Of a stretch of DNA of 64,000 bases, positions 14,037 through 63,067 are shown in pieces. Made by a program: the position numbers and the translations under genes. The notes below the pieces were generated by a model. That model saw only the letters and a list, made by a program, of their open reading frames with translations. It had not been told where the DNA came from and made no database searches. Numbering within the stretch: the first letter of the stretch is position 1; the number at the start of each line of letters is the position of its first letter. Source of the stretch: Culicoidibacter larvae (GTDB taxonomy: Bacteria; Bacillota_I; Bacilli_A; Culicoidibacterales; Culicoidibacteraceae); the NCBI RefSeq assembly GCF_005771635.1, contig NZ_VBWP01000001.1, positions 124,001 to 188,000 on the forward strand, written 5' to 3'.

Positions 14037-14290
14037 AATCAATGAAATCTAGGATGAGAATTAGTAGTAACTCACTTAATTTGTAGAGAGTCCGTGGCTG
14101 GTGAAAACGGATAGTTAATAGTTATGAATCAGACTCGGAGTGAAGTATTGAAGGGAAACTGTGTAGGTACTTTCGGGAACGCCCGTTATAGCGGAATGAA
14201 GTGACAATGTTTCACGTGAAACATTGTAATTAGGGTGGCACCGCGTAAAGACGTCCCTTTCGTAAGAAAGAGATGTCTTTTTTGATTTTA
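14037..14290 (+). ncRNA. T-box leader of serS (tRNA-Ser sensing)
   Basis: T-box leaders sense uncharged tRNA and allow read-through when charging falls. The apical part of stem I shows TCCGT and ACGGA around a loop with GGCTGGTGA (about 14088-14114). The T-box core AGGGTGGCACCGCG is at 14232-14245. A terminator stem (14247-14283, GACGTCCCTTTC with GAAAGAGATGTC) ends in T. I could not fix the specifier codon; TCA near 14127 is a candidate. A perfect parS sits between stem I and the T-box core. Confidence 0.92.
14208..14223. promoter_or_regulatory. parS: parS site 2, inside the serS T-box leader
   Basis: This is an exact copy of TGTTTCACGTGAAACA, 232 bases after site 1. The palindrome extends to 22 bases (14205-14226, CAA...TTG). 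In the leader RNA it would fold as a hairpin just before the T-box core. Confidence 0.93.
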
Positions 14291-17051: not shown

Positions 17052-17058
17052 AATAAAT

Positions 17059-17147
17059 GCGTCTATACAATGCAAATTTGTGAACTTGGTCAGATCCGGA
17101 AGGAAGCAGCCATAAGCAACCCTTTGCGTGTGTGTGGACGCTTTTTA
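17059..17147 (+). ncRNA. ffs: Signal recognition particle RNA (small bacterial 4.5S type)
   Basis: The hallmark apical segment GGTCAGATCCGGAAGGAAGC (17088-17107) is the Ffh-binding helix 8 with its GGAA tetraloop. The ends GCGTC (17059-17063) and GACGC (17137-17141) pair to close the hairpin, and a T run follows. The short form (about 83 nt, no Alu domain) is notable because Bacillus has a long form. It targets Ffh-bound ribosomes to the membrane. Confidence 0.95.
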
Positions 17148-17181
17148 TTTAAATGAATTAAAAAGGCGGTGTAATACTTTT

Positions 17182-36574: not shown

Positions 36575-36698
36575 TTAAAGGGAAATTATTAAAACAAAGA
36601 AGAACGGGAATTGAACTATTGAATTTTAATTCCTCTTTCATTTTAAAAATAAATGTGATACAGTAAAAGGGAAATTGATTTGGGGGCAGTGATAAGTA

Positions 36699-37370
36699 GT
36701 GCAAAAGATACTTTTTTTAGACGATGATGAAAAGTTCCAAAATGTAGTCGCCGAGGTATTAAGGCTGGAGCATTATGAGGTTGATTTAGCTTCGAATGCT
36801 GCAGATGGCTTGGATTTGTTTAAGAAAAATACGTATGATTTGATTATTAGTGACATTAAGATGGATGAAATTGATGGCTTGCAATTTTTACAGATTATTC
36901 GCAAGTTGGATGAGCAGGCTAAAGTAATCTTATTAACAGGCTCGCAGGCAGAAGAGGACGAGCTGCGGGGATTGGAATTACATGTTAATGATTTTATCAA
37001 GAAGCCGGTGACAATAAGAATTTTGCTTACGCGGATTGATCGAGTGCTGAATAAGAATAAATTTGCTAGGCAGATACATGTTTTGGAGAGTGCTAGTCAG
37101 TCCATTAAAGTGGATACAAAAGCAAAAAAGGTTTATAAAAATGGTGAATTAGCTGAGCTAACAATGTTGGAGTATGATTTGTTAGTGTATTTTTTGCGTA
37201 ATAAAAATATAGCATTGTCACGACAGCAAATGATTAAGGATGTTTGGCGAATTGCTGATTTTACAATGGAGCCTCGCAGTGTGGATACCCATATTAAGAA
37301 CTTGCGTGCTAAGTTGTCCATTTCCTGTATTTATTCGATTAGGGGTGTAGGCTATGAGTGGTCAGAATAA
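36699..37370 (+). CDS. OmpR-family response regulator (surface module 1)
   Basis: A 223-aa two-domain regulator. The receiver has LFLDDDEKF and the phosphoacceptor in LIISDIKMDEIDG (about 54), LLTGS and FIKKPV. The winged helix ends DTHIKNLRAKLS...SIRGVGYEWS. The start is GTG at 36699, preceded by GGGGG (36682-36686). Its end overlaps the kinase gene by 17 bases. With the downstream kinase, membrane protein and adhesin it forms a likely surface-control module. A candidate binding site (TACACAA repeats) lies before the adhesin promoter. Confidence 0.88.
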   Translation: MQKILFLDDDEKFQNVVAEVLRLEHYEVDLASNAADGLDLFKKNTYDLIISDIKMDEIDGLQFLQIIRKLDEQAKVILLTGSQAEEDELRGLELHVNDFIKKPVTIRILLTRIDRVLNKNKFARQIHVLESASQSIKVDTKAKKVYKNGELAELTMLEYDLLVYFLRNKNIALSRQQMIKDVWRIADFTMEPRSVDTHIKNLRAKLSISCIYSIRGVGYEWSE

Positions 37371-38769
37371 CACGGGAACTTTTTTACAACGCCATTGGCG
37401 TAAACTTTTTTATACCGGTGGCGGAATTTATTTGCTTCTGGTAATTGCCATGGGGACTTTAGTTTTAAATGTTCCAGCAATCTATAATCAAGCAGAAAAA
37501 GAACATGTAACCGGAATTCAAACAGAAGTTCAGTCAATTCTTAATCAGACTACTGGTGAGGAAATGGTTAATCAACTTACAGTAGCAACTAGTAGTGATG
37601 AATTTGACCTAGTGATAAAGCAAGACGGGAAAATTGTATTTAATTCAGTTAATGAAACCAATTTTTCGGAACTGCGTGATAGTGTTAAAGAAGGCTATAC
37701 AAGTTATCATAGTGCTTTTGAATATACAGCAAACAATAATCAGCATTATCAAATATGGATTGCAATTTACCGTTTACCGGCACAAGATTTCTTTGAACTC
37801 TTGATGGCGGTGCTTCTTGCCGGGGTTGCAACTCTTACAGTAATAATGACTTTCTTGGTATTTATGTTGTATCGCCGACTTATTTTACCGATTCGCCAGT
37901 TGCAACAAAATATTTTAAATTTAAGAGAGTACCGGTTTTCAGAATTAGAAGCCAGCAGAAACAGTAGCTATAACGAGTTATCAACTGAACTTACTGAGTT
38001 TAGTGAAGACTTACAAGATAAGATGCATACTTTTGACTCAAATTATACACGCCTTGAGCGTGAGTTGCAGGTTGAACAAGAAAAAACCGTGTATCAACAG
38101 CAACTAGCTACAGCGATTGTGCATGATTTAAAAACACCGATAAATGTTGCTATTATTCAAACTGAACAGTTGCAGCAAAAGTTGCCGCCAGAAGTAAGTG
38201 AAGATACATTATTTGCAGAACTTTTGGATACGGAACATAAACTTATTGGTGCGGTGAATGAAGTGCTTCAGGTTATGAACAAACCGGGAGATAACAAAGA
38301 TGAACTACAACTGATTGATGCAGTTGCCATGAGTAAAACAGTGATGAAACTTTTCAATAAGTTATTTGAGAAGCAACAAATTTTGGCAAGTTTAGATGTT
38401 CCGAGTAAGTTGATGGTTACTTTCAGGCCAATTGAATTGAAGCAAATACTCCATAATATTATTTCTAACGCTTGTCACTATACTGATATGGGCGGAGAGT
38501 TTGAGTTATCACTTGATCAAGAGAATGAACTATTTGTTATTCGAGCATATAATGATAAGGCAGATGTTTCAAATATTGATTTTGCTCATGTATTTGATTT
38601 ATTCTACCAAGTCGGTGAAGATGATGATGGTCATGGCAGCGGCGTTGGGATGTATACAATCCGGAGTATGGTTGAAGCTTATCATGGAACTTGTTCGTTT
38701 GAACCATTTGAAAATGGTGTGTTGCTTACGATAAAATTACCGACAAGCGGAGGTAATGGCGATGCGTAA
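37354..38769 (+). CDS. Membrane sensor histidine kinase (surface module 1)
   Basis: A 471-aa kinase with a first helix (about 20-40), an external domain (about 41-140), a second helix (about 147-172), HAMP-like linker, a coiled coil, HisKA with IVHDLKTPINVA (His about 254) and an HATPase with N box (NIISNACHY) and G2 (GSGVGMYTIRSM). The usual G1 box (DxGxG) is not visible; AYNDKADVSNIDFAH stands in its place, so ATP binding may be unusual. Its 3' end overlaps the next gene by 8 bases. The ligand is unknown. Confidence 0.87.
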   Translation: MSGQNNTGTFLQRHWRKLFYTGGGIYLLLVIAMGTLVLNVPAIYNQAEKEHVTGIQTEVQSILNQTTGEEMVNQLTVATSSDEFDLVIKQDGKIVFNSVNETNFSELRDSVKEGYTSYHSAFEYTANNNQHYQIWIAIYRLPAQDFFELLMAVLLAGVATLTVIMTFLVFMLYRRLILPIRQLQQNILNLREYRFSELEASRNSSYNELSTELTEFSEDLQDKMHTFDSNYTRLERELQVEQEKTVYQQQLATAIVHDLKTPINVAIIQTEQLQQKLPPEVSEDTLFAELLDTEHKLIGAVNEVLQVMNKPGDNKDELQLIDAVAMSKTVMKLFNKLFEKQQILASLDVPSKLMVTFRPIELKQILHNIISNACHYTDMGGEFELSLDQENELFVIRAYNDKADVSNIDFAHVFDLFYQVGEDDDGHGSGVGMYTIRSMVEAYHGTCSFEPFENGVLLTIKLPTSGGNGDA

Positions 38770-39469
38770 GTTGAGAAGAAGTGTTGCGGCCGTATTAATG
38801 TTGCTCTTTTTAGCGGGAGCAACATCAATACCAGCTTTTGCTATAGAACCGAATGTTTATGACTCCAAGGATGAAGCAGCTGCTGCTGAGACTAAGGTCT
38901 TGGAGGAGAGCGGCAGTCGTCCGGGAACATATCCAGTTACAGTTTCTTATCATGAGGATGGGAAAACGATTAGTGCGGTAGCATATGTTACGGTTGAAGG
39001 TAAGTATACGGTTATTGTTGAACCAATTGCAATTGATGCTCAGGCAATTCATTTGCGCGTTGACGAAGTCAGTGTGATGACTAATGAGGCGTGGATTGAA
39101 CGGGCTGATGCGCATGCATGGAATATGCAGACGCTGGCGGAGCTACCGATTGTATCGGTGGATGCAAGTTTGGTTAAGGCTGTTCCCGGACACTATAGTG
39201 TTACATTTGCTACAGTTGAGGGAGTTAGTACAACGGTGCCAGTGCTTGTTAGTCAAGTTGGTGCCAGTGGTGAAAATACGTTGTATGGTGCAAACAATGA
39301 AGCGCTGGGGAGTGGTTTCGGTTGGTTTGAAAGTTTTGGTTTTACAGTACTGAAAGTTTTTATTCTGACCATGTTGTTGTTGCCATTAGTTTTATTATTT
39401 TTCCAATTTTTCCTTTCTTCAAAACTGATGAAGGAATTAGAAGGAATTACTGATCGGGGGGGGAAATAA
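38762..39469 (+). CDS. Membrane-anchored protein with an Ig-like domain shared with the adjacent adhesin
   Basis: A 235-aa type I membrane protein: signal peptide (about 1-26, ending PAFA), two extracellular beta segments (GTYPVTVSYHEDGKT...; GHYSVTFATVEGVSTTVPVLV) and one C-terminal helix (about 193-218) with a short basic tail. The second segment (VDEVSVMTNEAWIERADAHAW...) resembles the domain just before LPVTG in the downstream adhesin. I chose ATG at 38762, 8 bases from GGAGG; the ATG at 38756 is too close. It overlaps the kinase gene and may be an accessory sensor. The ORF ends in a run of eight G. Confidence 0.75.
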   Translation: MRKLRRSVAAVLMLLFLAGATSIPAFAIEPNVYDSKDEAAAAETKVLEESGSRPGTYPVTVSYHEDGKTISAVAYVTVEGKYTVIVEPIAIDAQAIHLRVDEVSVMTNEAWIERADAHAWNMQTLAELPIVSVDASLVKAVPGHYSVTFATVEGVSTTVPVLVSQVGASGENTLYGANNEALGSGFGWFESFGFTVLKVFILTMLLLPLVLLFFQFFLSSKLMKELEGITDRGGK

Positions 39470-39618: not shown

Positions 39619-39665
39619 GGAGTTGAGAGAGTAAACAAAAATTTTGAAAAAGGGGGAGTTTTATT

Positions 39666-42600
39666 ATGAAAACGAATAAAACTTTTAAGCAATTATTAGC
39701 GCTTTTAGGAGCGTTTATACTTGTTTTCAGCGCTATTGATTTGCCGGTTTGGGCAATGAGTGATGAAAACATTTCTTCTGAAAATAGTTCAAAGGAGAAT
39801 GTAACAGAAGATGTTGCAACTTCGGAAAATGTTGAAGCAACAGAATCTGAGATTCTAAATAATACTACTGCACAGAAATCATTATTGCGTGCCGGGGAAA
39901 CTATTGCGTCTTTGGATGGAGTAAGTATGGGTGGCGATAGTGATAGTATTTCGGTAGAAACTTGGACCTCAGGTTTATATTCAAAAACATTAGATATCAA
40001 TGCTACTTTTGATGGTAGTGTATCAACAACTAATCGTCAGATTTCAATTAGTCTGGTGAACGGATTAGCGTTTGATACTATTCCCGGAATGGTTGCCGTT
40101 GATACTAATAAGAATAACTGGAAATTCGATGCCAGTACCTTACCAAAGAATCTTCAGGGAATTATTGTTGGTGCAACTTATACGCCAAGTCCGCAACTCT
40201 ACTGGTGGTCGCCGCGAAGTGGGACATTAGTTTATGAGATTGCTGCCGGAACAACTTCAGTAAATATGTCAGCAGCCATTATCAGTGATATGGTATTCAA
40301 TATGACTGATGTTAGCAGAACGTTGACGGATGCGATAAAAGTTCAAACCTTGGAAAACGGTGTACAAACTGCAGAGAATGTTTTGGAAAGCTATATCTTA
40401 AATGGGACCGCCAATCCTTCATTATATATAAATAGTGGTGGTAATGTTATTCGCTATTTAAAACCTGGGGAAAGCAGCACAATTGATAATAGTTTGACAG
40501 TTCAATTACCAGGATTACCATTACAGAATAATGCGATGTTAACTGAAGAAATTACGTATGTCTTTAGAATGAATAAGAATGCCGGTTTCCAAACCTTTAC
40601 TTTTGCCGGAATTGATGGTGCTGATTGTACGACTACTGTTGATCGTACCAGTGATCCGGTTTATGACATTATCACTTTGACAATGTTACGTCCAAAGAAT
40701 TTTGCCGGAAATAAAATCATATCTAATTATACGGTCCCAGCTGGTGCAGTGAATGGTTCATACAGATTGGAATTCGTCAGTTCAAAAACTAAATTAATTG
40801 GTGCAAGTGATTATGTTAAAACAACTAATTTTGCAAAGGTTTTTGCTGATGCTACAATGCCTTTAGTAGTTGTGGATGATACGGTAGGTCACTTAACGGT
40901 TGATACCGTAAGAGAACCATATTATGCATATAATCCGGTTTTAGATAGTGCAACACTAACGCCGTTAGGGGCATTTGATGTATTTAACCCAACAGCAGAT
41001 GTTGCGGCTGATCAAAAAATGCAGTTAACTTTTGATGATACCAATATTGGTGTCAAAATGGTGCAATTAGTAACTGGTCGTGGCGATGCTGCTACAAATA
41101 TTGTTATTACAACTAATAAAGGGAATACAATTAATATTCCTTCGGTTGCAACAACAGCTAATAATGAAAAAGTGGTTGGTTTTGTAAGAATTAATCTTGC
41201 TGACTATGGTGTTACTGACGCAACTGAATATATATCATCACTTACTTATGATATGGGTGATATTGGCAAAGGTGGCGGTCGTAATAACTCTGGTCATGCA
41301 TCGTTTGTTGGTAGCAGCGACACTTTGAGCGGAAGCTATATTCCACCAGTAGTTTATTACGGAGAAGTTTTGACTATTCCAGCATCAAAGCAGTATAGTG
41401 CTAAAATTGCGGTTACTACAACAGATAAAGAATTCAGTGATGCAGACACAGCTAAAGCAACCAATACAATGACAATTATTGATGCAAAAGCAATGACCTT
41501 TATTACTAAGAGCTCAATTACGAATGATAACCCGGCATTAAGTGGCGGAGATACTCGCAGAGTAACATTTTCTTTCTTGCAATCAGCATACAAATATCTG
41601 AATACTGTATCTTCCGCTAACAAAGGGTTTGAAGTATATATCCGTGAGGATCAATATTTTAGTATCAATAAAGATACGATTAGTGCAAATTGGGAAGGGA
41701 ATACTTACAGTGTCGCTGCCGGAACATTAGTAGCTACGCAGACAGTTGATAATACCGGCGCAAAAGTTTACAAACTTTCATTTCCAGATGTAATTCTCGG
41801 TGCCTATAAATTATCTGGTTCAACATATGACCAATTAAATATTTCATATGATTTAAAAGTGAAGCCTAATGCACCAACAACTAGTTTTGCTACTAAAGAT
41901 TTGATTCAGATTTTACCAACGAACGGTATTGGTGTATCAACTAGTAATGGTGGTAATGCACCTTATAATAATCCTAATATTTTTAATGTTGACAGCAGTG
42001 GCAGTGTTACAAAATATGTAGGAACTCCTGACAATCGCATTGCGCTGCGTTTGCAAGCACAAAAAGATTTTGTAGTGACTACTGCAGCTAATCTAAATGG
42101 CGGGCCATGGGTGAGTTATGATTTTGAAACTGATTCAGAAGTTATTAACTTAAATCCAAGTGGCGAAGCCCGTTATAAGTTGAATGTAGTGAATAATTCC
42201 GGAGAGGCAATTGAAGGCTATACGGCTTTAGTGCCAATTCCTAAATACGGGGAATCGACGGGCTTGCAGCCGACGAATCCCGCGGACTTTAAAAATGATG
42301 AGCATTTGCAGAAAGAAAACTTTGGCTGGACGGCATCGTTATTAGAGCAGATTGATACTTCGGGAAGTAAGTTGAGCTATCAAGTGTTGTATGCAACGAC
42401 TTATGAGACTGAAAAAGATTCGCCAAACTTTGTGGCATGGGATGCAATTACTGATAAGAATGAGATTCGGATGGTAAAAATCGTGACTACGGATTCAATT
42501 GCTGATGGTGTTGATGATGAGATTAGTTTTCCATTGGCGTTGACTGACCCGTTAGCTGATGCACATGCAGGGAATATCAATATTTATTCAGCGCGTATCC

Positions 42601-44966
42601 ACCGTGTTGTTGGTGGAACATCGGGTTATAAACCAAGTGAACCAGTAGCATTGCGTTTAAAAACCGGTGCGGTAAAAGGGATTGTGTTTGATGATACCAA
42701 CCGTAATGGACTTCAAGATGGCAGCGAAACCGGACGTAATGGTATTGCTGTACGTGTTTATGAAAAAGGAACAACGACGCTTATTGATAGTACAACAACA
42801 AAAACAATTAATGGTGTTGATGGTTCATATGAGTTCTTGGGACTGGATAAGGATCAAGAAGTAGATATTATCTTTATTAATCCAAATACAAATGACTCAA
42901 CGCGATTTTCGGCGGTAACTAGTGGTGGTTCTACACCAACTGAAGCGGCTGATCATTTACAGGCAACTACTGCCGGAGTAAAAGCAAGTGCAACAGGTTA
43001 TGATACCATTCATGCCGGAATTATTACCCCAGTGGCTGTTAATTTCAATGCTCAAGGCGGCAGCACTGCGGCAACAACAGTCAATAGATATCCAGGTGAA
43101 ACAATTGTCAGTGAGCCAGATGCAGTAAAAACCGGACATACATTTACTGGTTGGTTTACCGCAGCGACAGGTGGTTCAAAAGTAACGTTCCCATATATAT
43201 CAGGAACAACTGATGTAACTTTACATGCGCAATATACCGCGAATAAATACCTGATTAATTATGATATCGCAACGAATGGTGGCGAAGGAACAGCACCAGC
43301 CAGCGAGAATGTTACGTATGATACAACTGCGACGCAACCAGCTAATCCGGTAAAAACCGGCTATACTTTCAGCGGTTGGTATGATGCCGCAAGTGGTGGA
43401 AGCTTATGGAATTTTGCAACTAATAAAATGCCAGCAAATGATGTCCAACTCTATGCACAATTTACGATTAATAATTATACGTTAACATTGGATAATGAAG
43501 GTGTAACAACGAATCAAACTGTAGAATATAATGCATTAGCAACTGAGCCAACTGAACCAACAAAAACCGGATTTACTTTTGATGGTTGGTTTGATGCCGT
43601 GACTGGTGGTACTGAATGGAACTTTGCGACCGACACAATGCCAGCCGCAAACAAAACATTATATGCTCAATACACACGTAACAACTACACAGTTACCTTC
43701 AATGATCAAGGGACAACCACAACAGACAGCGTTGCTTATGAAGCTTTGATTACAGAACCAACAAGTGTACCAACAAAACCTGGTTATACATTCAGTGGTT
43801 GGTATGATGCGGCAACTGGCGGAACTAAGTGGGACTTTGCCGCTGACACAATGCCAGCTGCAAACAAAACACTTTATGCTCAGTTCACAGCAGATGATCA
43901 AACAATTACCTTTGATGTAAACACTGGTGATGCTAAGACGAGACCAGCTGATGTTGTACAACCGACAGATTCAACATTTGACTTGGATGCAGTAACTGCG
44001 CCAAGCAAACCAGGTTATAGTTTTGTTGGCTGGTTTGATGCTTCTGACACCCAACATAGTGGTACCATTACGATGCCGGTTGGCGGTTTGGACTTAATTG
44101 CTAAGTGGAGTGCTGATGACCAAGTAATCAGCTTTAATAGTAAAGGCGGAAGCGGTATTGCTTCAATTACAGCTAAAACCGATAGCGATGTTGATTTAGA
44201 TACACAAGTCACAACTAGACCTGGATATCAATTTGATGGTTGGTTTGATGCAAGTGACAACCAATACAGCGGAATGGTAACAATGCCAGCAGGTGGGTTA
44301 GCGTTAGAAGCACATTGGACAGCTTTGGATCAAACAATTACCTTTGATGTCAATGGTGGCGATGTAGCGACACAACCAGCAGATTTAGTACAACCAACAG
44401 ATTCTACCGTACATCTTGACGCTGTAAATGAGCCAACTTGGTTTGGCCATAAGTTCCTTGGCTGGCAGACCGCAGATGGCACTGCTTACAGTGGTGATAT
44501 CACGATGCCGGTTGATGGCTTGACACTATACGCTCAATGGCAAGATTTGATTGTTGATGGTGTATGGAAAATTCAAGCTGATGATGTTCGGATTACCGTT
44601 GATCAACTCAAAGAATTTATCAAAAACGGAACGTTAGAAGCAGAGATTTTGAGTCGTTCAAATGCTAAAGCTTGGGATGAAAGCGATGGTCGTGACTTAA
44701 ACCCACTTTATGCTAATATCAATGTGTTAGTCGAAAAATCGGCAGCAGGAACATATCTAGTGACTATTGTTTACTTAGATCCTTCTGGCAACGAACTTTC
44801 ATCAGTACTGGCAACAGATATTACAGTATATGTTGATGAAGTACCTGTTCCTGAGTTAGCACTTCCGGTTACCGGCGGCAATGAGTTACCAATGACAATT
44901 GGTGGTGCGGGATTGATCTTGCTTGCAGGAATAGTTCTTATCAGCAGAAAGAAATCAAGAAAGTAA
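39666..44966 (+). CDS. LPVTG-anchored adhesin-like surface protein with InlB-type repeats (adhesin 1)
   Basis: A 1766-aa cell-wall protein. It has a signal peptide (about 1-31), a Ser/Glu/Asn-rich stretch (32-75), and a long N-terminal region of beta-rich sequence (about 80-1000) with no family I can name. An SdrD B-like domain follows (about 1001-1120; [17 protein letters not shown]), then seven InlB B/Flg_new-type repeats (about 1121-1630; [15 protein letters not shown] pattern) and an Ig-like domain (about 1632-1725). LPVTG at 1733-1737 is followed by a hydrophobic helix and RKKSRK, a sortase signal. The ribosome-binding region is GGGGGAG. Likely host or surface attachment, inferred from architecture only. 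Confidence 0.92.
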
Positions 44967-44997
44967 TAAGATAGTGAGAGCATGATTTGCTCTCCTT

Positions 44998-45050
44998 CTT
45001 AAATAGAGTATACTAGGTCATCCCCCCTGCACTTAGTTACTCTATTTAAG
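44998..45050 (+). ncRNA. Long hairpin with CCCCCC loop in the adhesin 1 3' UTR
   Basis: About 20 bases on each side pair (44998-45018 with 45031-45050; one bulge, two imperfect pairs) around the loop CATCCCCCCTGC (45019-45030). There is no T run at once after it, so it is not a plain terminator. The loop can pair with the AGGGGG of the adhesin 1 ribosome-binding region. A smaller hairpin (GAGAGCA with TGCTCTC, 44976-44993) precedes it. Confidence 0.6.
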
Positions 45051-45067
45051 ACGCTTTTGGGATAAAG

Positions 45068-45108
45068 TTTAGACCCGGGTCCGCTTATGGCGGCACCCGG
45101 GTCTTATT
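45068..45108 (+). terminator. Terminator after adhesin 1 (repeat copy 1)
   Basis: AGACCCGGGT (45071-45080) and inner CCGC pair with GCGG and ACCCGGGTCT (45095-45104), followed by a T-rich stretch. A 37-base copy with one mismatch lies at 46701-46737. Confidence 0.85.
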
Positions 45109-45129
45109 TTCTTATAAAAAATATTGGCA

Positions 45130-45741
45130 CTATTTATTTGAGTAAACTTCAAAAAAAGTTTCAATATGTTTATTTATTTTTTCCTCTATAAATTTGCTCT
45201 GAACATTCACTGAGTCAGTTTTAAAAAAGTTTAGGAAGAGTGGTGAATAAAAGTTTGCTGCCATAATATCGGCATCTATTTTAATTAGCTTTCCGTTTTG
45301 TATTAATGAGGTAAATAGAATGGTTAGATATTTTAGTGGCATATCAATAAATATCTCATTGAAGAGTTCAGCAGCGCTAAACTGAGCGTATTGTTCTATG
45401 AGCAACATTTTTCTAAACTGTACTGCGAGTTCATCATTCAAATAGAAATCGAATAGAGTAATATATTTTTTGGCTAAATTCTGAATATTAATACTGTGCT
45501 CGATTTTATTATTAGTTGCTTTTATTGGAAATACATACTCGTTATTTGCTTCTTTCAGTCGTTTAGAAACTTGACTTAGAATTGTATCAAAGATTTCTTG
45601 TTTGCCCTTGTAATGGTTGTAAATTGAGCTATCCTTTATACCAACAGCGTTGGCAATATCTTTTACCGAAACGCCATTATAGCCATATTCTGAAAACAGA
45701 GCAAGTGATTCTTTCCATATGAGTTCTTTTGTATTTTTGAT
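45130..45741 (-). CDS. TetR-family repressor with a non-standard (ATC) start position
   Basis: The reading frame from 45741 encodes about 203 aa. It opens (I/M)KNTKELIWKESLALFSEYG, then VSVKDIANAVGIKDSSIYNHYKGK, the classic TetR helix-turn-helix, and a ligand-binding helical half. The expected start codon is ATC, six bases after a perfect AAGGAGG. No ATG, GTG or TTG exists in frame before 45441, and starting there would lose the whole DNA-binding domain. It is either a start-codon loss, a rare ATC/ATT start, or a sequencing error. Second gene of the phosphotransferase-tetR operon, whose promoter carries TetR-type operators. Confidence 0.8.
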   Translation of the reverse strand: MKNTKELIWKESLALFSEYGYNGVSVKDIANAVGIKDSSIYNHYKGKQEIFDTILSQVSKRLKEANNEYVFPIKATNNKIEHSINIQNLAKKYITLFDFYLNDELAVQFRKMLLIEQYAQFSAAELFNEIFIDMPLKYLTILFTSLIQNGKLIKIDADIMAANFYSPLFLNFFKTDSVNVQSKFIEEKINKHIETFFEVYSNK

Positions 45742-45782
45742 AATAACCCTCCTTAATTTTTAAAAAAATAAAGATGTAAATT

Positions 45783-46586
45783 TTAAGTGTTTAGTCGTTT
45801 TCTAACTTCTTTTAATAGTCTTTTTGTTTCTGCTTCAGGCAGCCATTTTTGCAGTCTGGAAGCCATAATAATAGGATACCACACTTTAATCTCGTCTATT
45901 GTTCGTCCTGAAAGTAAACAATATTCATTTAAATAAGCACGATTCATTATTCTTTGAGGGATAGAGCTTAAATAGCTAATAAATATAGGTACTCTTGGTA
46001 TAACGGCAAATTCTAGCATAACTGCTGTTCTCGCTACATCAGCTAGAGGATTACCTATACAACAAGTCATCCAATCGATAACTTTCTCGTCATCTCGCTT
46101 ATACATAATGTTGCCTGGATGAAAATCAAAATGGCAAATCTTATACTCGATAGATTGCTGAGTGATTTTTTGGAGAAGTATCTCTTTTTCGGTTTCATTC
46201 AAATATATAGCTTGAGAAATACTAGCAGGCAGAATTGTAGTCATCGCAGGAATTACCTCACCATAATAATCTTTCTGATGGATATTGAAATGTAATCTTG
46301 CCATTTTTCTGCCATATTCTTTAATAAGCCATGGCTTTCTTAATGACAATGTAAGTAACGCTGGGGAGGAGACTCTTTCATATATGATTCCCGGTCGATT
46401 ATCTTCTACAATCATCTCAAATGCTTTAGGTAAGTTTGATATTAATTTAGATAATTCTTGATTGATGGCAAACTCTTTTTCACATGCTTTTGAGTTAAAA
46501 GAAGGCCGAAATAGTTTTAAAACTTGGTTATCTGACCATTCAAAAACTTCTGCGGTATTACCTTCTGCGATCATTTTCTTTTTCAT
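45783..46586 (-). CDS. Aminoglycoside phosphotransferase/choline kinase-like protein
   Basis: A 267-aa protein of the APH/choline-kinase fold. It has the catalytic HFDFHPGNIMY (about 151-161; the Asp and Asn of the Brenner motif) and VIDWMTCCIGNPLADVART (about 169; metal-binding Asp). The N-terminal EGNTAEVFEW acts as the nucleotide loop. The substrate could be an antibiotic, a sugar or choline; resistance must not be assumed. GGAGGTG lies 12 bases before the ATG. It heads the operon with tetR 41 bases downstream, and sits in a cassette bounded by duplicated terminators. Confidence 0.8.
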   Translation of the reverse strand: MKKKMIAEGNTAEVFEWSDNQVLKLFRPSFNSKACEKEFAINQELSKLISNLPKAFEMIVEDNRPGIIYERVSSPALLTLSLRKPWLIKEYGRKMARLHFNIHQKDYYGEVIPAMTTILPASISQAIYLNETEKEILLQKITQQSIEYKICHFDFHPGNIMYKRDDEKVIDWMTCCIGNPLADVARTAVMLEFAVIPRVPIFISYLSSIPQRIMNRAYLNEYCLLSGRTIDEIKVWYPIIMASRLQKWLPEAETKRLLKEVRKRLNT

Positions 46587-46617
46587 AATCCATGAACACC
46601 TCCATTGAAATAAGCTT

Positions 46618-46672
46618 AAACTAGTGTTTACTAGTTTAAGCTTATTTTACTAGTAAACACTAGTTTTGTCAA
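46618..46672 (-). promoter_or_regulatory. Promoter and twin operators of the phosphotransferase-tetR operon
   Basis: On the minus strand TTGACA (46672-46667), a 17-base spacer and TAAAAT (46649-46644) form a strong promoter. The spacer holds ACTAGTGTTTACTAGT, and the inverted version ACTAGTAAACACTAGT lies just downstream (46620-46635), near the transcription start. Perfect 18-base arms (46618-46635 and 46649-46666) face each other. A repressor on these sites would block RNA polymerase. Confidence 0.82.
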
Positions 46673-46700
46673 CTTAACTCGATGATAGGTAGTGATTAAT

Positions 46701-46745
46701 TTTAGACCCGGGTCCGCTTATGGCGGCACCAGGGTCTTCATTTTT
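46701..46745 (+). repeat. Terminator repeat copy 2 (orphan)
   Basis: Positions 46701-46737 repeat 45068-45104 with one substitution (C to A in the right stem) and are followed by TTTTTT. It is oriented for plus-strand transcription, yet the two genes before it are on the minus strand, so it has nothing obvious to terminate here. Confidence 0.85.
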
Positions 46746-46791
46746 TGTAAAAGATGATATACTATAGCTATAATAATGGAGGCGGATAAAT

Positions 46792-47715
46792 ATGGCGTTA
46801 CTAGTTGTAGATATTGGTGGTTCGGCAGTGAAGTATGGTGTGTGGGATAAGGAATCATTACATGCTAAGGATGAGTTTCCGACGCCGCCGTTAAGAGCAG
46901 ATTTTTTTACTAAGATGAAGCAAATATTGGATGAGCTGGGAGAAAAGTATGAAATTGAAGGTTTGGGACTTAGTTGCCCGGGTGAAACCGATGAAAAGAC
47001 CGGGAAGGTGGCTGGTTGGAGTTTTGTGCCGTTTTTGGCTTTTGGTGAGTTTCAGCAGACTTTTTCTGATGCATTAGACGGGTTGCCGGTTACGATGATG
47101 AATGATGCGAATTGTGCCGGGTTAGCCGAAATGCGGTATGGTGTTGGGAGAGGACACGAAAATCCGTTATTCTTGATTATTGGATCGGGAATTGGCTTGG
47201 CATTTGTTCGTGATGGTGAGATTGTCGTTGATACTCAGTCGGAAATTTCGTTGCTGGATAAATTGGTTACTACAGCCTTGCAGTTGTTGCATGGAATTAA
47301 TGTGTCGCCGGTGCAGATGGGAAAAGTTGTTTCAGTGAAAAAATTTCAGCTTCCGGATAGTATTGAAGGTAAGGATGTTTTTGAGTTGGCGAAGCAAGGG
47401 GATAAGGTGGCAAAAGAGCAAGTTGATAAAATGTATCAGTCACTGGCAGAAATTATTATTTACCTGCAGACTATTTTTAAACCGGAGTTTTTTGCAATTG
47501 GCGGTGGATTGAGCAAGAATAAAGATTTGCTGGAAAATTTGCAGCAGGCAATTACTGATTATTTGGCAGATGAGAATCCATTGTTTCTGATGTTTAGAAA
47601 GCAGGTTTTGCAAGAAGATGAAACAATGGCAGCGCCGGAAGTGAAAATTTGTGAGTATAGTAATGATGCTAACTTAATTGGCGCGGCATTGCATTTTTAT
47701 GATGTGCAGCAGTAA
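46792..47715 (+). CDS. ROK-family sugar kinase
   Basis: A 307-aa ROK-family protein: VVDIGGSAVKYGVWD (nucleotide loop 1), GLGLSCPGETDEKTG, the catalytic-type Asp in VTMMNDANCAGLAEMRYG (about 103-120), LIIGSGIGLAFV, and FAIGGGLSKN near the C-terminus. It lacks the CxCGxxGCxE zinc motif of many glucokinases, which fits the BglK-like branch. The sugar is unknown. GGAGG precedes the ATG. It stands alone, with a strong terminator after it. Confidence 0.88.
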   Translation: MALLVVDIGGSAVKYGVWDKESLHAKDEFPTPPLRADFFTKMKQILDELGEKYEIEGLGLSCPGETDEKTGKVAGWSFVPFLAFGEFQQTFSDALDGLPVTMMNDANCAGLAEMRYGVGRGHENPLFLIIGSGIGLAFVRDGEIVVDTQSEISLLDKLVTTALQLLHGINVSPVQMGKVVSVKKFQLPDSIEGKDVFELAKQGDKVAKEQVDKMYQSLAEIIIYLQTIFKPEFFAIGGGLSKNKDLLENLQQAITDYLADENPLFLMFRKQVLQEDETMAAPEVKICEYSNDANLIGAALHFYDVQQ

Positions 47716-47735
47716 AGTTTTTTGTGGAAAATTTT

Positions 47736-47774
47736 AAAACCGGGGCGAGGGACAAGTATCGCCCCGGTTTTTCT
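47736..47774 (+). terminator. Terminator after the ROK kinase
   Basis: AAAACCGGGGCGA (47736-47748) pairs perfectly with TCGCCCCGGTTTT (47760-47772), followed by T. Confidence 0.93.
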
Positions 47775-47784
47775 ATACAATAGT

Positions 47785-47818
47785 GCAAGTTATTGATAGA
47801 ATTTGGCAACTTAATTGA
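47785..47818 (+). promoter_or_regulatory. LytTR-type direct repeats upstream of the small membrane protein gene
   Basis: GCAAGTTATTGA (47785-47796) and GCAACTTAATTGA (47806-47818) start 21 bases apart, the two-turn spacing of LytTR binding sites. A matching pair lies before adhesin 2. Confidence 0.55.
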
Positions 47819-47878
47819 TTTTGCAACATCAGCATTTTGGTTTTTGCTATGCTATTCCTAGACTTAGGAGGGAAAGTT

Positions 47879-48319
47879 ATGCAAAATTATGAATCAATTA
47901 AAGGGTATCGCAGCCTGGTTTTGACGAATGCGATTTTTTGTTTAGTGAATGCTATTCCAGGATTAGGCATGGTGCTTAATTTCTTGATTGGTATTCCATC
48001 ATTAGTGGTGTTGATTATGTCGGTTATTGAGATGTTTAAGGCACCAAAAGCTAACCAAAAACGCGGTGTGCCGATTTTGGCAATGGTAGCTGGTACATTA
48101 GGATTTATCTCAGCATTGATGATGGTGGTTAGTTTAATTCTGGGTAATGGTTCATCAAGTTATTCAGTAAATACCAGTGGCAGCAGCGGTAATCCGCTTA
48201 TCTTGTTTGCTATGTTAATTGGTGTTACGGCATGGATATTATATGTTATTTCTACTATTATGCACTTCATGCTAGTAAGAAAATTAGGTGCTATTTATCG
48301 TAATGAGCAAAGTATCTGA
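47879..48319 (+). CDS. Small multi-pass membrane protein of unknown function
   Basis: A 146-aa protein with about four predicted helices (about 17-55 as two, 66-90, 108-135) and a Ser/Gly-rich loop (about 92-106). I recognise no family. I chose ATG at 47879 with AGGAGGG before it; an in-frame start at 47837 has no ribosome-binding site. It precedes the LytTR/DUF3021 pair and carries LytTR-type repeats upstream, so it is likely a target of that regulator. Confidence 0.75.
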   Translation: MQNYESIKGYRSLVLTNAIFCLVNAIPGLGMVLNFLIGIPSLVVLIMSVIEMFKAPKANQKRGVPILAMVAGTLGFISALMMVVSLILGNGSSSYSVNTSGSSGNPLILFAMLIGVTAWILYVISTIMHFMLVRKLGAIYRNEQSI

Positions 48320-48382
48320 TTTTGGTACACACAAAGTTATGTGATATGATTATGACAATACATAATCTATAGGGGGAAGCTT

Positions 48383-48826
48383 ATGATTGTTCATGTAAAA
48401 GAATTTGAAGCTGTTGATGTTCCGGAAATTACTTTGCGTTGTGCAGTGTTCGATGAACGCTTGCAACGCTTAGTTCATTCAATTGAATTTTTTGAAGTGA
48501 ATGATAAGATGTTAGGCGTTATTGATTCGGAAACCCATATTCTGGAAACAAAATCAATTTATTATTTTGAAAGTGTGGATAACAAACTGTTTATTTATAC
48601 AAAAGATGAGGTCTATCAATCTGATTTGAAGCTATATGAGGTAGAGGCCATGCTACAAATGCAGTCATTTATCCGCATCTCAAAGTCTATGATTGTTAAC
48701 CTGCGGAAAATCCGACGGATCATCCCCGGATTTCACCGCCGCTTCATTGCTGAATTACTGAATGGCGAGAATGTTATTATTTCTCGCCAATATGCACCAA
48801 TACTTAAAGAGAAGTTAGGAATGTGA
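48383..48826 (+). CDS. LytTR-family DNA-binding regulator
   Basis: A 147-aa protein whose C-terminal two-thirds is a LytTR domain (SIYYFESVDNKLFIYTKDEVY..., FIRISKSMIVNLRKIRRIIP, VIISRQYAPILKEKLG). It has no receiver domain, so it is not a standard response regulator. It stands 10 bases before a DUF3021 membrane protein, the layout of LytTR regulatory systems (for example HdrRM and BrsRM of Streptococcus mutans), where the membrane partner holds the activator inactive. Its ribosome-binding region is GGGGGAAG. Confidence 0.9.
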   Translation: MIVHVKEFEAVDVPEITLRCAVFDERLQRLVHSIEFFEVNDKMLGVIDSETHILETKSIYYFESVDNKLFIYTKDEVYQSDLKLYEVEAMLQMQSFIRISKSMIVNLRKIRRIIPGFHRRFIAELLNGENVIISRQYAPILKEKLGM

Positions 48827-48836
48827 GGTTAGTGCT

Positions 48837-49259
48837 ATGAATAATATATTAAAAATGATTGTTCGCAATATGCTGGCGATTTTCTCAGGCAGCATTTTGG
48901 CAATGAGCATGTTTTTTATTGTTTTCAGTCAGGCATTTGTGCCAGTGTATATAATTCTGATTTTGGCTGGATTGAGTTTGTTTCTTGCTGCCAGTCAAGT
49001 GTTGTTGCTATCAATCAATGATAATTACTCGCGACTAGAAATACTAATCAGAAGCGCGATATTTTTATTGGTGGTTGTTATTAGTGTCGGTGGTTTGGCT
49101 TTGCTTTTCAACTGGTTGCACAATGTGTTTGAATTCTTAATTTTGACGGCAATTATTGTTGTTACCTACGTAGTTATTTGGATAGGTATGTATTTGCGTG
49201 ATGTTCATGAGCTTTCAGCGATTAACAAAAAACTTGAAGAGTATAATCGTGATATATAA
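48837..49259 (+). CDS. DUF3021 membrane protein, likely inhibitor partner of the LytTR regulator
   Basis: A 140-aa protein with four predicted helices (about 13-33, 37-58, 70-92, 98-120) and a charged cytoplasmic tail (LRDVHELSAINKKLEEYNRD). The size and pairing with LytTR match the DUF3021 family. By analogy with HdrM/BrsM it should sequester or inhibit the regulator encoded just before. GAGGT precedes the ATG. A strong terminator follows. Confidence 0.82.
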   Translation: MNNILKMIVRNMLAIFSGSILAMSMFFIVFSQAFVPVYIILILAGLSLFLAASQVLLLSINDNYSRLEILIRSAIFLLVVVISVGGLALLFNWLHNVFEFLILTAIIVVTYVVIWIGMYLRDVHELSAINKKLEEYNRDI

Positions 49260-49265
49260 ACTGGA

Positions 49266-49296
49266 ATAAAAGCGTCCCTTCAAGGGACGCTTTTAT
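49266..49296 (+). terminator. Terminator after the LytTR/DUF3021 operon
   Basis: AAAAGCGTCCC pairs with GGGACGCTTTT around TTCAA, followed by T. Confidence 0.92.
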
Positions 49297-49301
49297 TTTT
49301 G

Positions 49302-49335
49302 GCATTTTACCTAAAGCAAGTGGCAACTTACTTGA
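49302..49335 (+). promoter_or_regulatory. LytTR-type direct repeats upstream of adhesin 2
   Basis: GCATTTTAC (49302-49310) and GCAACTTACTTGA (49323-49335) start 21 bases apart. The second unit matches the unit at 47806 at 12 of 13 positions (TGGCAACTTA then TTGA). Confidence 0.55.
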
Positions 49336-49407
49336 CTTTTATTGTTTACAAATGCTTTTTTTAGTATTTTTATTGTGTAGATGAAATATTGAAACGGGGG
49401 CATTATA

Positions 49408-52400
49408 ATGAAAAATGTTTGTAGAAAGTTAGCGCAATTTATGTTGGCGCTTTTAATTATGGTTGGTGCGTATAGTACGCAGATGCGAGTGTCGGCTGCA
49501 AATGAGGCCGTGAATGTAAGTATTGTGCCATCAAGTACAGCAGTGGCGAGTGGTGAGTTGTTCTACTATACGGTGACACTTGGGTTCTCGGGAACAACAG
49601 TTAACTACAGTGATATGGACGTTATTATCGATTTGCCTGAGGGTATTAGCAATATTGTATCGCTACCGAATATTAATGGTGTAAGCGGAACATATGACGT
49701 ACTGAGTCGCAAAGTAGTTTACCATTTTGACACAGTTAACTCCGGCGCGGTTTACGATATTACTATTGGTGTTTCATTTAAGGATTTTTTGACGCCAAAT
49801 AATACTAGTGAGCAAGCTCAAGTAACCGTCCAAGGTACGGCTACTGATTCAGGAAGTGGTGTATCGACGAACATTAACCAGAGCAAGACGGCTGATGCGG
49901 TCGTAGTCGGAGCAACACCTTATCAAGAAATTCGCAAGTCAACAATGAACAATAAGATTATTGTTGGTGAGGTCTTCCCTTACTATATTACATATAAATC
50001 TCATGATAATTCAACAAGTCAGGGTCACTTGAAATGGGAGACAATAACAATTGTTGATACGCTGCCGGCCGGACTTGAGTTTCAGAGTGCGACTTTAGGT
50101 GGGGTTTATGATGCTGGCACTCATAGTGTTAGTTGGCATTTTGTCGGTACTGAGGATTCAAGTGCTTATCCCTACAAAAACATGGTAGTCTTTGTAAAGG
50201 TAACTGATTCTAGCTTGGCAGGAAGCGATATTACCAACAGGGTCAGTGTTTCCAGTGTTGCATTGGGTGAGAGTACACCTCATATTTTAGCTTCAGAAGT
50301 GACGCTTCCAGTTGTTGGTGCCGGGCTTGGTGACCCTTCTACCAAAATTGGTATCAATAAAGTAGCCGATAAAGCGAAATATGGGCTGGATGCTGATATT
50401 AGTTTCAGCATTACCGGTTTATCTAATAATACTGATGTGACTTTAGAGGACTACACAATTATTGATAGAAACTGGAGTCCGGAACTTGCATTGAAGAAAA
50501 TATATTTGAGTGGTGTTCGCGGTATGCTGCCAAGTTCAACTTATTATTTGGATTATACTGTTGATGATCAATCAGTGGCTGATAATATGGTTACTTGGAT
50601 TAATGCTGCCAGCTACACAACAAATGCTGCCGGGGATGATCTAAGCGCAAAGACAATTGCTGTTGCTGATTTAGGGTTGCCGACAGGAACGCAAGTGACC
50701 GGCATCCGGGTGCGTTTGGGGAATGTACCGACTGGGTTTTCATTTGCGGATAACGCAAATGGAAACCAACGAATTCGTTTGACGTATGCTGTTAGTGATG
50801 CAAGTTTTACTGGCGGTGAAGTTGAAAATACAGCGAAGGCAAAGTTTGTTTATAATAATACGGTTATTGATTCTGAGAAAACAGCAACGACTTTAATTGA
50901 GGGGGAGAGTTCGCCAACAATTGGGGTGGAAAAGACAGTTGCGAATCTGGGGCCATTTTTACCAAATGGGTATATTGATTATAAGATAAGTGCGTTTGTT
51001 TCAAGTGGCGGTGGGGTAGGTGCGCAAGATTTTGTGGTCAGTGATTTATTACCGGTGGGAGTGACGTATGTAACTGGTAGTTTGTCGGTAAGCCCGACTG
51101 CAATGGCCCCGGACCGTATTGAGATTATTGATGATTATAATGGCAGTGGGCGGCAACTGATTCGGATGATATATAGTGACGAGGTAGATATGGGAACAGC
51201 TATATATTATAATTTTAGAACTTTGGTAGCTAATGAAGCGGGATATGGCACAATAACTAATACAGCCTATGCCAGTGCATCAAATTTAACTGACCCGAGT
51301 GTTTTAAATTATAACTATCAAACTGATGTTAATGATGTCAATGGGAATGGTTCAGTTGATGACTATGTAGTATATGCCGATGTTCAGAGTACTATTGAAG
51401 TCGCTACAAAAATCACTTCTGAAAAACTTGTTCGTGGTGAATTAGATAAAGATCCGAGCAATCCTAATGCTGGCTTTAGTAAATATCCAGGTGTTGCTAC
51501 CACCACACCTGGTGGACAGATTGAATATCAGTTAAAAGTTACTAATGATTCAAATATTGCGGTTAAAGATGTTGTGGTTATGGATATTTTACCTAAACGC
51601 GGTGATATTGGTGTTGTTGATCATAGCGCGCGCTTATCTGAATGGAGCCCATACTTAAGTGATGAACTGGAAGCTCCAAGCAATACAACAATTTATTATA
51701 CGACGGCCGAGAATCCATCGAGATCGGAGCTTGTTGGTGTTAGTGATCCGGTTGGAGCAGAAGATCCTATGTGGTCTGAGACACCACCTGCAGATTTAAC
51801 TCAGATTACAGCACTGCTATTTAAAATTGATGTACAAATGGAGCCGGGTGAAAGCCGAGTATTTGAATGGAAGATGCGAGCACCGATTGGCGCACCAACA
51901 AGCGGAGAAGTTGCCTGGAATTCATTTGCTTTTAGTGCTACAAACACGGTAACCGGTAATTCTATTTCGGCTACTGAGCCAAATAAAGTAGGCACGAAGA
52001 TTCAACCTAATCCAAAATCGTCGTTGGGTGATTTTGTTTGGCTGGATGTCAATAATAATGGTATTCAAGATGTTGGTGAATCAGGGGTGAATGGTGTACG
52101 GGTTCATTTATTAGATATTAGTGATAATATTTTGGATACAACATTAACCGGGGATAATTTTGATGGTGCTCCGGGTTACTATGGTTTTGTTAATCTTGAT
52201 GCGGGAACTTATAAGGTGGAATTTGTCTTGCCAGATGGATATGTGTTTACAGTGCCGGCAGCTGGTGGGGATTCAGCTTTAGATTCGGATGTTATTCTTG
52301 ATGGAAAGACTAATATGATTGTGCTTGGCATTGGTGAAGATAATCAAGACATTGATGCTGGATTAATAGTAAAGCTTCCGGAGGAACCAAAAGAAGAGAC

Positions 52401-52548
52401 GACAGATAATAATACTAGTGATAATAATCAGACTGAGCCAAATACGGAGTTGCCCGTTACTGGAGCAAATCAGTATGAATTTGCGATTGTTGGCGGTAGT
52501 TTTATACTAGGCGGTATCACCATTGCTTTGATGAAACGCAGAAAATAG
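49408..52548 (+). CDS. LPVTG-anchored surface protein with DUF11-type and SdrD B-like domains (adhesin 2)
   Basis: A 1046-aa cell-wall protein. It has a signal peptide (about 1-31) and about five beta domains of the DUF11 kind (about 34-865), recognisable by the DxLPxGLxFxS pattern (VDTLPAGLEFQSATL, SDLLPVGVTYVTGSL, MDILPKRGDIGVVD). An SdrD B-like domain is at about 871-985 (LGDFVWLDVNNNGIQDVGE). A Glu/Asp/Asn/Thr-rich wall spacer leads to LPVTG at 1015-1019, a helix and KRRK. The ribosome-binding region is GGGGG (49396-49400). Domains of this kind often carry isopeptide bonds; not checked here. Probably controlled by the LytTR gene upstream. Confidence 0.92.
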   Translation: MKNVCRKLAQFMLALLIMVGAYSTQMRVSAANEAVNVSIVPSSTAVASGELFYYTVTLGFSGTTVNYSDMDVIIDLPEGISNIVSLPNINGVSGTYDVLSRKVVYHFDTVNSGAVYDITIGVSFKDFLTPNNTSEQAQVTVQGTATDSGSGVSTNINQSKTADAVVVGATPYQEIRKSTMNNKIIVGEVFPYYITYKSHDNSTSQGHLKWETITIVDTLPAGLEFQSATLGGVYDAGTHSVSWHFVGTEDSSAYPYKNMVVFVKVTDSSLAGSDITNRVSVSSVALGESTPHILASEVTLPVVGAGLGDPSTKIGINKVADKAKYGLDADISFSITGLSNNTDVTLEDYTIIDRNWSPELALKKIYLSGVRGMLPSSTYYLDYTVDDQSVADNMVTWINAASYTTNAAGDDLSAKTIAVADLGLPTGTQVTGIRVRLGNVPTGFSFADNANGNQRIRLTYAVSDASFTGGEVENTAKAKFVYNNTVIDSEKTATTLIEGESSPTIGVEKTVANLGPFLPNGYIDYKISAFVSSGGGVGAQDFVVSDLLPVGVTYVTGSLSVSPTAMAPDRIEIIDDYNGSGRQLIRMIYSDEVDMGTAIYYNFRTLVANEAGYGTITNTAYASASNLTDPSVLNYNYQTDVNDVNGNGSVDDYVVYADVQSTIEVATKITSEKLVRGELDKDPSNPNAGFSKYPGVATTTPGGQIEYQLKVTNDSNIAVKDVVVMDILPKRGDIGVVDHSARLSEWSPYLSDELEAPSNTTIYYTTAENPSRSELVGVSDPVGAEDPMWSETPPADLTQITALLFKIDVQMEPGESRVFEWKMRAPIGAPTSGEVAWNSFAFSATNTVTGNSISATEPNKVGTKIQPNPKSSLGDFVWLDVNNNGIQDVGESGVNGVRVHLLDISDNILDTTLTGDNFDGAPGYYGFVNLDAGTYKVEFVLPDGYVFTVPAAGGDSALDSDVILDGKTNMIVLGIGEDNQDIDAGLIVKLPEEPKEETTDNNTSDNNQTEPNTELPVTGANQYEFAIVGGSFILGGITIALMKRRK

Positions 52549-52568
52549 AAGGAGTCTTCACTCCTTCT
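52547..52568 (+). terminator. Hairpin at the adhesin 2 stop codon
   Basis: AGAAGGAGT (52547-52555) pairs perfectly with ACTCCTTCT (52560-52568) around CTTC. There is no T run, so termination is doubtful; it may protect the 3' end or precede the next hairpin. Confidence 0.6.
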
Positions 52569-52570
52569 AT

Positions 52571-52609
52571 GGACTCATGTGTAACGCCCCCCACATTATA
52601 CATGACTCC
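52571..52609 (+). ncRNA. Hairpin with CCCCCC loop in the adhesin 2 3' UTR
   Basis: GGACTCATGTGTAA (52571-52584) pairs with TTATACATGACTCC (52596-52609), 12 of 14 positions, around CGCCCCCCACA. As after adhesin 1, the loop shows exactly six C and no T run follows. GCCCCC can pair with GGGGGC of the adhesin 2 ribosome-binding region. Confidence 0.6.
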
Positions 52610-52714
52610 GTAAAAGGAGTTGAAGCAATCAATGAAGTAAGTCTTAAAATATAGCCAATAAAATCAAAGTAATTTTTATATTGAGCTTTCGCTATAAAGC
52701 ACGCTACAATTTAC

Positions 52715-58093: not shown

Positions 58094-58446
58094 GGGGATG
58101 TTTTTGGATTCGACAGGCACATTTGCGGCATAGACTGCAGGCCGAAGGCGCTCGTTACGCGCATGCTTTAAATTAAGCGGAAACAAAAATTTAAACTTAG
58201 CTGCTGCCTAAGGGCACAGCACTCTAGCTTAGTATTGTCCATGTATTAAGTCAAGGGTTCATTTTTAAAGTGGAATACGATTGATGACTGTGGCCCGTGG
58301 TTGTTAATAAGAGATTTAAGGGCTCGCATGTCCCGTCTTTGTCAGCTGGGGTTCGGTGCATGTTAAATCTTGACAACTGACTAAGCTTGTAGACGTTTAT
58401 GTGACGGTGTGTTTGGACAGGGGTTCGATTCCCCTCATCTCCACCA
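58094..58446 (+). ncRNA. ssrA: Transfer-messenger RNA (tmRNA)
   Basis: About 353 nt. The 5' end GGGGATG pairs with CATCTCC at the 3' end, and ACCA is encoded. The hallmark TTTTTGGATTCGACAGGC follows the 5' end, and the T-arm GGACAGGGGTTCGATTCCCC is near the 3' end. The tag frame starts with GGA at 58179 and stops with TAA at 58209-58211, giving GNKNLNLAAA after the alanine carried by tmRNA. The tag ends LAAA rather than the frequent ALAA. It rescues stalled ribosomes with SmpB. Confidence 0.97.
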
Positions 58447-62983: not shown

Positions 62984-63067
62984 TTTTACATTAAGTCTAT
63001 GATTCTTGATTTGAAACTAAAAGTATGATAGTCTTTAGGGCGTAGAATTTTATTAGGGGGCAATAAA

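Follow-up and report, generated by a model that had tools for sequence, protein, structure and literature searches.

C-rich hairpin loops of LPXTG adhesin genes and G-run Shine–Dalgarno sequences in Culicoidibacter larvae: a candidate trans-acting RNA regulon

C-rich RNA loops that block ribosome-binding sites have so far been known one at a time. In the biofilm-related icaR gene of Staphylococcus aureus, a C-rich motif (UCCCCUG) in the 3′ untranslated region (3′ UTR) pairs with the Shine–Dalgarno (SD) region of the same mRNA, the choice between pairing in cis and in trans being left open by the authors (PMC3868564). In Listeria monocytogenes, the multicopy LhrC small RNAs (sRNAs), which are linked to a two-component system, carry CU-rich motifs (UCCC) that bind a G-rich sequence before the start codon of lapB, the mRNA of a cell-wall-anchored adhesin, with no need for Hfq (PMC4132741). 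In Helicobacter pylori, a single sRNA, RepG, uses a C/U-rich hairpin loop to bind the homopolymeric G-run of the tlpB 5′ UTR, one long repeat of variable length that controls the tlpB-hp0102 operon (PMC8295292). The C-rich (UCCC) sRNAs RNAIII, RsaE, SprD and FsrA of the Firmicutes block SD sequences (as cited in PMC4132741). Here, we analyzed a 64,000-nt stretch of Culicoidibacter larvae contig NZ_VBWP01000001.1 (the window), from a 2.5 Mb genome assembled into 33 contigs, in which the 3′ UTRs of two LPXTG adhesin genes hold hairpins with runs of C in their loops (C-loops) and the leaders of the adhesins and of linked regulators hold runs of five G (G5 leaders).

The C-rich motif in a 3′ UTR is a feature shared with icaR, both in the window hairpins and in other members of the family described below; the icaR circuit, however, concerns a single mRNA, whereas here about 12 3′ UTRs, and possibly some stand-alone RNAs, are set against about 50 G-run leaders, and no preference for pairing in cis was seen. 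As for LhrC, several paralogous copies bear C-rich loops, and their complementarity and computed energies suggest that they could engage the G-rich SD regions of LPXTG adhesins. Unlike LhrC, which comprises stand-alone sRNA genes, most copies here lie in adhesin 3′ UTRs, and three of five stand-alone candidates have promoter-like and terminator-like sites; the runs are C5–C8, the linked response regulators themselves bear target G-runs, and no Rfam family reaches threshold at the window hairpins or at nine further loci scanned. A homopolymeric 5′ UTR G-run facing a C-rich hairpin loop, as in RepG–tlpB, was also found, but here the runs are short (G5–G8) and occupy the SD position in front of dozens of genes. 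RNAIII, RsaE, SprD and FsrA use ordinary G-rich SD targets, whereas the targets here bear a distinct G-run that most other genes of the genome lack. The system would thus resemble icaR, LhrC and RepG in its working; homology to any of them is not claimed. The open-access papers searched contained no report of an LPXTG 3′ UTR C-loop family or of a G-run SD regulon.

C-loops and G-run leaders in the window and across the genome

In each of the two window hairpins, which are long and belong to the 3′ UTRs of adhesins 1 and 2 (Table 1), the C6 run occupies the apical loop, and both hairpins were found where the first-pass annotation, made from the sequence of the window, had placed them. The predicted folds have energies of −23.8 kcal/mol (z = −7.2) for C-loop hairpin 1 and −31.2 kcal/mol (z = −9.5) for C-loop hairpin 2, with 0 of 200 shuffled sequences equally stable in either case. 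Neither is directly followed in the window by the T run of an intrinsic terminator, again as annotated; a simple terminator was rejected as their identity, the stem standing without an immediate T run. All five annotated GGGGG leaders were verified and lie ~6–12 nt from the start codon, and the other G5 or C5 runs of the window (15911, 33468, 36219, 50901, 60720 and 62624) have no leader position. The accompanying remark that C6 runs are otherwise not apparent holds for the plus strand, where there are none elsewhere, but overlooks a C8 on the minus strand (the G8 run in Table 1), which, judged by its letters, is a further possible pairing or slippage site. C5 runs in the window are below chance (19 matches versus 32 in shuffles).

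The genome contains about 60 LPXTG genes, and all of its runs of six or more C or G (C6+ and G6+) were located. Most clear cases among these 67 distinct runs fall into two groups. The first consists of G6+ runs 4–13 nt upstream of a start codon (25 by a mechanical rule that admits a few doubtful runs inside other genes), and the genes that follow include response regulators (ILFVDDD type), Rgg-like helix-turn-helix (HTH) regulators, and LPXTG or other exported proteins. The second consists of C6+ runs in the loops of long hairpins, mostly 40–160 nt 3′ of LPXTG stop codons. In a 400-kb sample from outside the regions studied earlier, which holds no LPXTG gene and whose C6 count was not used, G5+ leaders precede 4 of 372 genes, versus 28 of the 56 LPXTG genes with a visible start; hairpins with a C5+ loop lie within 200 nt 3′ of 12 of 60 LPXTG genes and of 0 of the 372. 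Because that sample avoided the earlier regions and contains no LPXTG gene, a set of 696 genes, biased towards C6 regions and hence conservative, is the safer control. Against it, the enrichment persists for both G5+ leaders (29/55 LPXTG versus 23/696 others, p = 3e-23, Fisher) and C5+ hairpin loops (11/55 versus 2/696, p = 8e-12, Fisher). The frequency of G5+ leaders in other genes is therefore 1–3%, and the 23 "other" carriers among the 696 include several surface proteins, response regulators, Rgg-like regulators and the LytTR gene that the automatic labels missed. Read on the sense strand, the loops in LPXTG 3′ UTRs are 12 C and 0 G. Both elements concentrate on surface genes and their linked regulators, and the random spread over the genome that the first-pass annotation had named as telling against its proposal was not seen. 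Two LPXTG matches at C13:28091 and C13:34948, separated by ~6.9 kb, have the same score and the same frame length, which suggests a recent duplication. At L068, L071, L072 and L021, G6–G8 runs may lie in the first codons of an MNIE..GGK-type protein family, perhaps out of frame in L072.

Adhesin 1 belongs to an operon headed by a response regulator. This regulator has 12 paralogues in the genome (46–60% identity), and G5–G7 is present in the leaders of 13/13 of these paralogous regulators versus 1/17 other response regulators (p = 1.2e-7). In an alignment of the 13 leaders anchored on the G-run, identity is 100% in its five G columns and only 0.19–0.59 in the columns on either side, which indicates that the G-run was kept while the remaining leader drifted. 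Where the contig permits, the gene order is response regulator, kinase, exported protein of ~240 aa, giant adhesin and C-loop hairpin, a module found in up to 13 places. A G5 leader precedes 10 of 11 visible module adhesins (at C1:432k and C20, the start differs slightly from the automatic call). Within the same operons, G5 is present in 23/24 regulator and adhesin leaders versus 1/25 kinase and third-gene leaders. A C-loop hairpin is present in six of the seven modules that are complete to the adhesin stop (window, C2, C7:19k, C10:33k, C7:116k and C3), the remaining modules being cut by contig ends; as several contigs (C7, C10, C16 and C20) end inside repetitive adhesin genes, the C-loop count is a lower bound. 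Downstream of the module at C10:49k there is no adhesin but a stand-alone C7 RNA candidate, ~1.5 kb past the third gene of the module. The module adhesin at C2:269.7-275k (L340 3049-8258, minus strand) is split by a frameshift into frames of 727 and 974 codons, the cause being an error in the sequence, decay or switching.

The hairpin family and its stand-alone candidates

Fifteen hairpins aligned with MAFFT proved too diverse for a model, and the covariance model was instead built from five hairpins with an alignable, homologous stem (5′ arm near ATAGAGCAATAA, 3′ arm near TTGTTGCTCTAT). In this stem, 96% of cells are paired and 7 of 16 pairs are changed on both sides, whereas slid controls lose nearly all of this; since the structure was drawn from the same five sequences, the 96% is favored by construction, and the two-sided changes are the stronger part of the evidence. 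The model scores 56.9 bits on the sense strand versus 29.3 bits on the antisense strand, as expected from G-U pairs in RNA. Presence, predicted structure, stem covariation, sense orientation and genome-wide enrichment on the same gene classes are in each case computed results.

Only those five places are found by the model with good scores, so it underestimates the size of the family. Other members (adhesin 2, L118, L122, L133, L121, L153 and L054) have different stems with the same C5–C6 apex; it is thus the loop and its position, more than the stem, that mark the family. A T tract follows the C-loop hairpin in some members (L121, L153, C3:280082 and C8:73005); most have a separate downstream terminator or no T tract. 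About five C-run RNAs look like stand-alone candidates. At three of them (C1:282567, C3:280082 and C10:53300), a promoter-like site matching 10/12 positions ends 54–66 nt before the C-run and the locus has a terminator-like end, both sites being predictions from sequence; C8:73005 and C2:295253 are weaker candidates.

Three other genomes of the order gave 4–6 anchor matches each, with no C5 3′ UTR loop and no covariance-model match; one C5 run among these relatives, 231 nt downstream of a stop, was not counted. The RNase R of this genome shares no more than 48% identity with that of named relatives.

Proposed pairing and the alternatives

The reading that we favor, with a probability of roughly 0.6, is that C5–C8 loops pair mainly in trans with G5–G8 SD runs and thereby limit the adhesins and their regulators. 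The loops would be the base-pairing heads of a regulatory hairpin family, most members of which belong to 3′ UTRs of large LPXTG adhesin transcripts, while a few are probably stand-alone sRNAs. They would act on the SD runs in the leaders of adhesin genes, of operon-heading response regulators and of a small number of further linked regulators. A loop bound to such a run, without marked selectivity between partners, would keep ribosomes from entering, such that the production of many surface proteins and regulators would be capped or cross-coupled, with negative feedback and cross-talk among paralogous modules. All of this would proceed without Hfq, for which no gene was found in the genome by a search that detects Hfq in control genomes. 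Repression as the sign of the pairing is assumed from the icaR, LhrC–lapB and RepG–tlpB precedents; transcription and processing of the hairpins, their physical pairing with leaders and the biological role are what we infer from the computed pattern. More tentatively, the modules may form an RNA cross-silencing network, in which each expressed adhesin 3′ UTR, together with a few relatives that stand alone, would reach in trans the G-run SD sites of all modules, including those of the response regulators by which the modules are switched on, and competition between messages would set total or alternative surface-protein expression.

For duplexes between C-loops and G-run leaders, computed energies are −11 to −20 kcal/mol; the same leaders give −8.6 to −11.2 kcal/mol with the anti-SD. 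The loop–leader duplex at least matches that of the anti-SD, making competition with ribosomes plausible. The energies give little help to a circuit of the icaR kind, in which the C-loop of each adhesin 3′ UTR would pair with its own SD and autoregulate its own gene only. Adhesins 1 and 2 do bear both elements on one mRNA with matching letters, and the adhesin 2 loop (GCCCCC) with its own GGGGGC leader is nearly the best pairing (−15.1). However, for six cognate loop–leader pairs the own-pair energy is no better than that of permuted pairs (permutation 0.23), so that complementarity is present but the preference for the own SD over others is not, and the match of loop 1 to adhesin 1 and loop 2 to adhesin 2 drawn in the first-pass annotation was not borne out. 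Nor do the two elements co-occur in cis beyond expectation, a G5 leader being present in 5/11 C-loop LPXTG genes versus 23/45 others. Furthermore, there are C-loop carriers with no G5 leader (L118, L121, L122, L133 and L153) and stand-alone C-run RNA candidates with no coding region of their own. A purely cis circuit is improbable on these grounds; the lack of both cognate preference and cis association favors a shared trans network. The broader proposal of a circuit from 3′ UTR to leader survives in its cross-coupling form, which is supported by the distribution and for which the pairing is energetically plausible, but not as a match of each loop to its own leader.

The two elements could also be ordinary and unconnected: G5 would be a strong SD variant of an expanded gene class, and the hairpins 3′-end stabilizers or terminators whose loop was conserved by recent duplication. 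GGGGG is indeed about equal to common SDs in its pairing with the anti-SD, the gene family has clearly expanded by duplication, and T tracts follow the four C-loop hairpins named above. Duplication alone sits poorly, however, with a G-run common to unrelated families (response regulators, LPXTG proteins, Rgg-like HTH regulators and LytTR) and not to kinases and third genes of the same operons, with leaders that have diverged everywhere but in the run, and with several C-loop stems that cannot be aligned with the shared stem; most hairpins, moreover, do not end in a T tract of their own. We regard this explanation as unlikely. Less likely again is an RNA-binding protein that reads the C-loops, the G-runs or both and couples the 3′ and 5′ ends or blocks ribosomes. 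A loop conserved over different stems is typical of protein-binding hairpins, and a protein recognizing C-runs would need no partner specificity, in keeping with the computed energies, but the exact complementarity of two enriched motifs would then be a coincidence, and the search for Hfq, the only candidate protein that was searched for, found none. A role at the level of DNA, with the runs as phase-variation slippage tracts, or with the inverted repeats as sites of recombination between adhesin loci or as operators of the linked regulators, appears very improbable. Variation of the G-run from G5 to G8 and repetitive adhesin genes in which contigs break would suit it; homopolymer runs of 5–6 are short for efficient slippage, and the strict loop orientation and the sense preference of the covariance model point to RNA.

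Several observations also weigh against the trans pairing that we favor, beyond the missing cognate preference and cis association, which count against it as well. Half of the LPXTG genes have no G5 leader and 80% have no C-loop. The G-run is partly paired in some leaders (unpaired probability 0.21–0.54), G5 is itself an acceptable SD and could have been chosen for another reason, and an element present once per mRNA in a 3′ UTR makes a weak regulator in trans unless it is processed or stable. The G5-to-G8 variation between genes was seen within a single genome, and the system as a whole was seen in this genome only; given the three relatives of the order that lack it, it appears lineage-specific. 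The genome-wide observation is stronger than the window alone could reveal: C-loops and a special G-run SD, spread over a whole gene class and repeated with the module, constitute a candidate regulon readable from sequence alone. If the pairing is real, this genome would offer a natural setting in which to ask whether the 3′ UTRs of mRNAs serve as a shared trans brake on paralogous surface proteins, would inform how bacteria without Hfq organize RNA networks, and would test how one large adhesin family is kept in check.

Features of the window

The positions of the hairpins, runs and genes discussed above are collected in Table 1.

Table 1. Hairpins, G-runs and genes of the adhesin regions in the window.
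Feature	Position	Strand	Remarks
C-loop hairpin 1	44997..45051	+	adhesin 1 3′ UTR; C6 at 45022-45027
C-loop hairpin 2	52556..52625	+	adhesin 2 3′ UTR; C6 at 52587-52592
Terminator-like GC-rich hairpin	45071..45104	+	separate, 3′ of C-loop hairpin 1; T-rich tail to 45110
Short hairpin	44976..44994	+	directly 3′ of adhesin 1 stop codon
Short hairpin	52549..52566	+	3′ of adhesin 2 stop; overlaps outer stem of C-loop hairpin 2
G5	36682..36686	+	response-regulator leader (start 36699)
G5	39652..39656	+	SD zone, adhesin 1
G5	48372..48376	+	LytTR gene leader
G5	49396..49400	+	SD zone, adhesin 2
G5	63056..63060	+	SD zone, third LPXTG gene (start 63068)
G8 run	39456..39463	+ (C8 on −)	last codons of third module gene, ~200 nt before adhesin 1
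OmpR-type response regulator	36699..37370	+	Pfam PF00072 and PF00486; first gene of adhesin module; 12 close genome paralogues
Sensor histidine kinase	37354..38769	+	PF02518, PF00512; overlaps regulator gene; no G5 leader
Third module gene, 237 aa	38756..39469	+	apparent signal peptide
Adhesin 1, 1766 aa	39666..44966	+	LPVTG anchor, pAdhesive_6, Listeria-Bacteroides repeats
LytTR DNA-binding regulator	48383..48826	+	PF04397; upstream of adhesin 2
DUF3021 protein gene	48837..49259	+	PF11457; adjoins LytTR regulator
Adhesin 2, 1046 aa	49408..52548	+	LPVTG anchor, SdrD_B and DUF11 domains
Third LPXTG gene	start 63068, continues past window end	+	MucBP domains

The protein of the third module gene has no Pfam or NCBIfam match. 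The short hairpin after adhesin 2 shares nucleotides with the outer stem of C-loop hairpin 2, so the two may be alternative folds. The terminator-like hairpin after adhesin 1 (45061-45122) has a second copy, 87% identical, ~1.6 kb onward at 46694-46755. The window also contains ordinary RNAs: a transfer-messenger RNA (58094-58446), a T-box leader (14042-14261) and a small signal recognition particle RNA (17054-17149).

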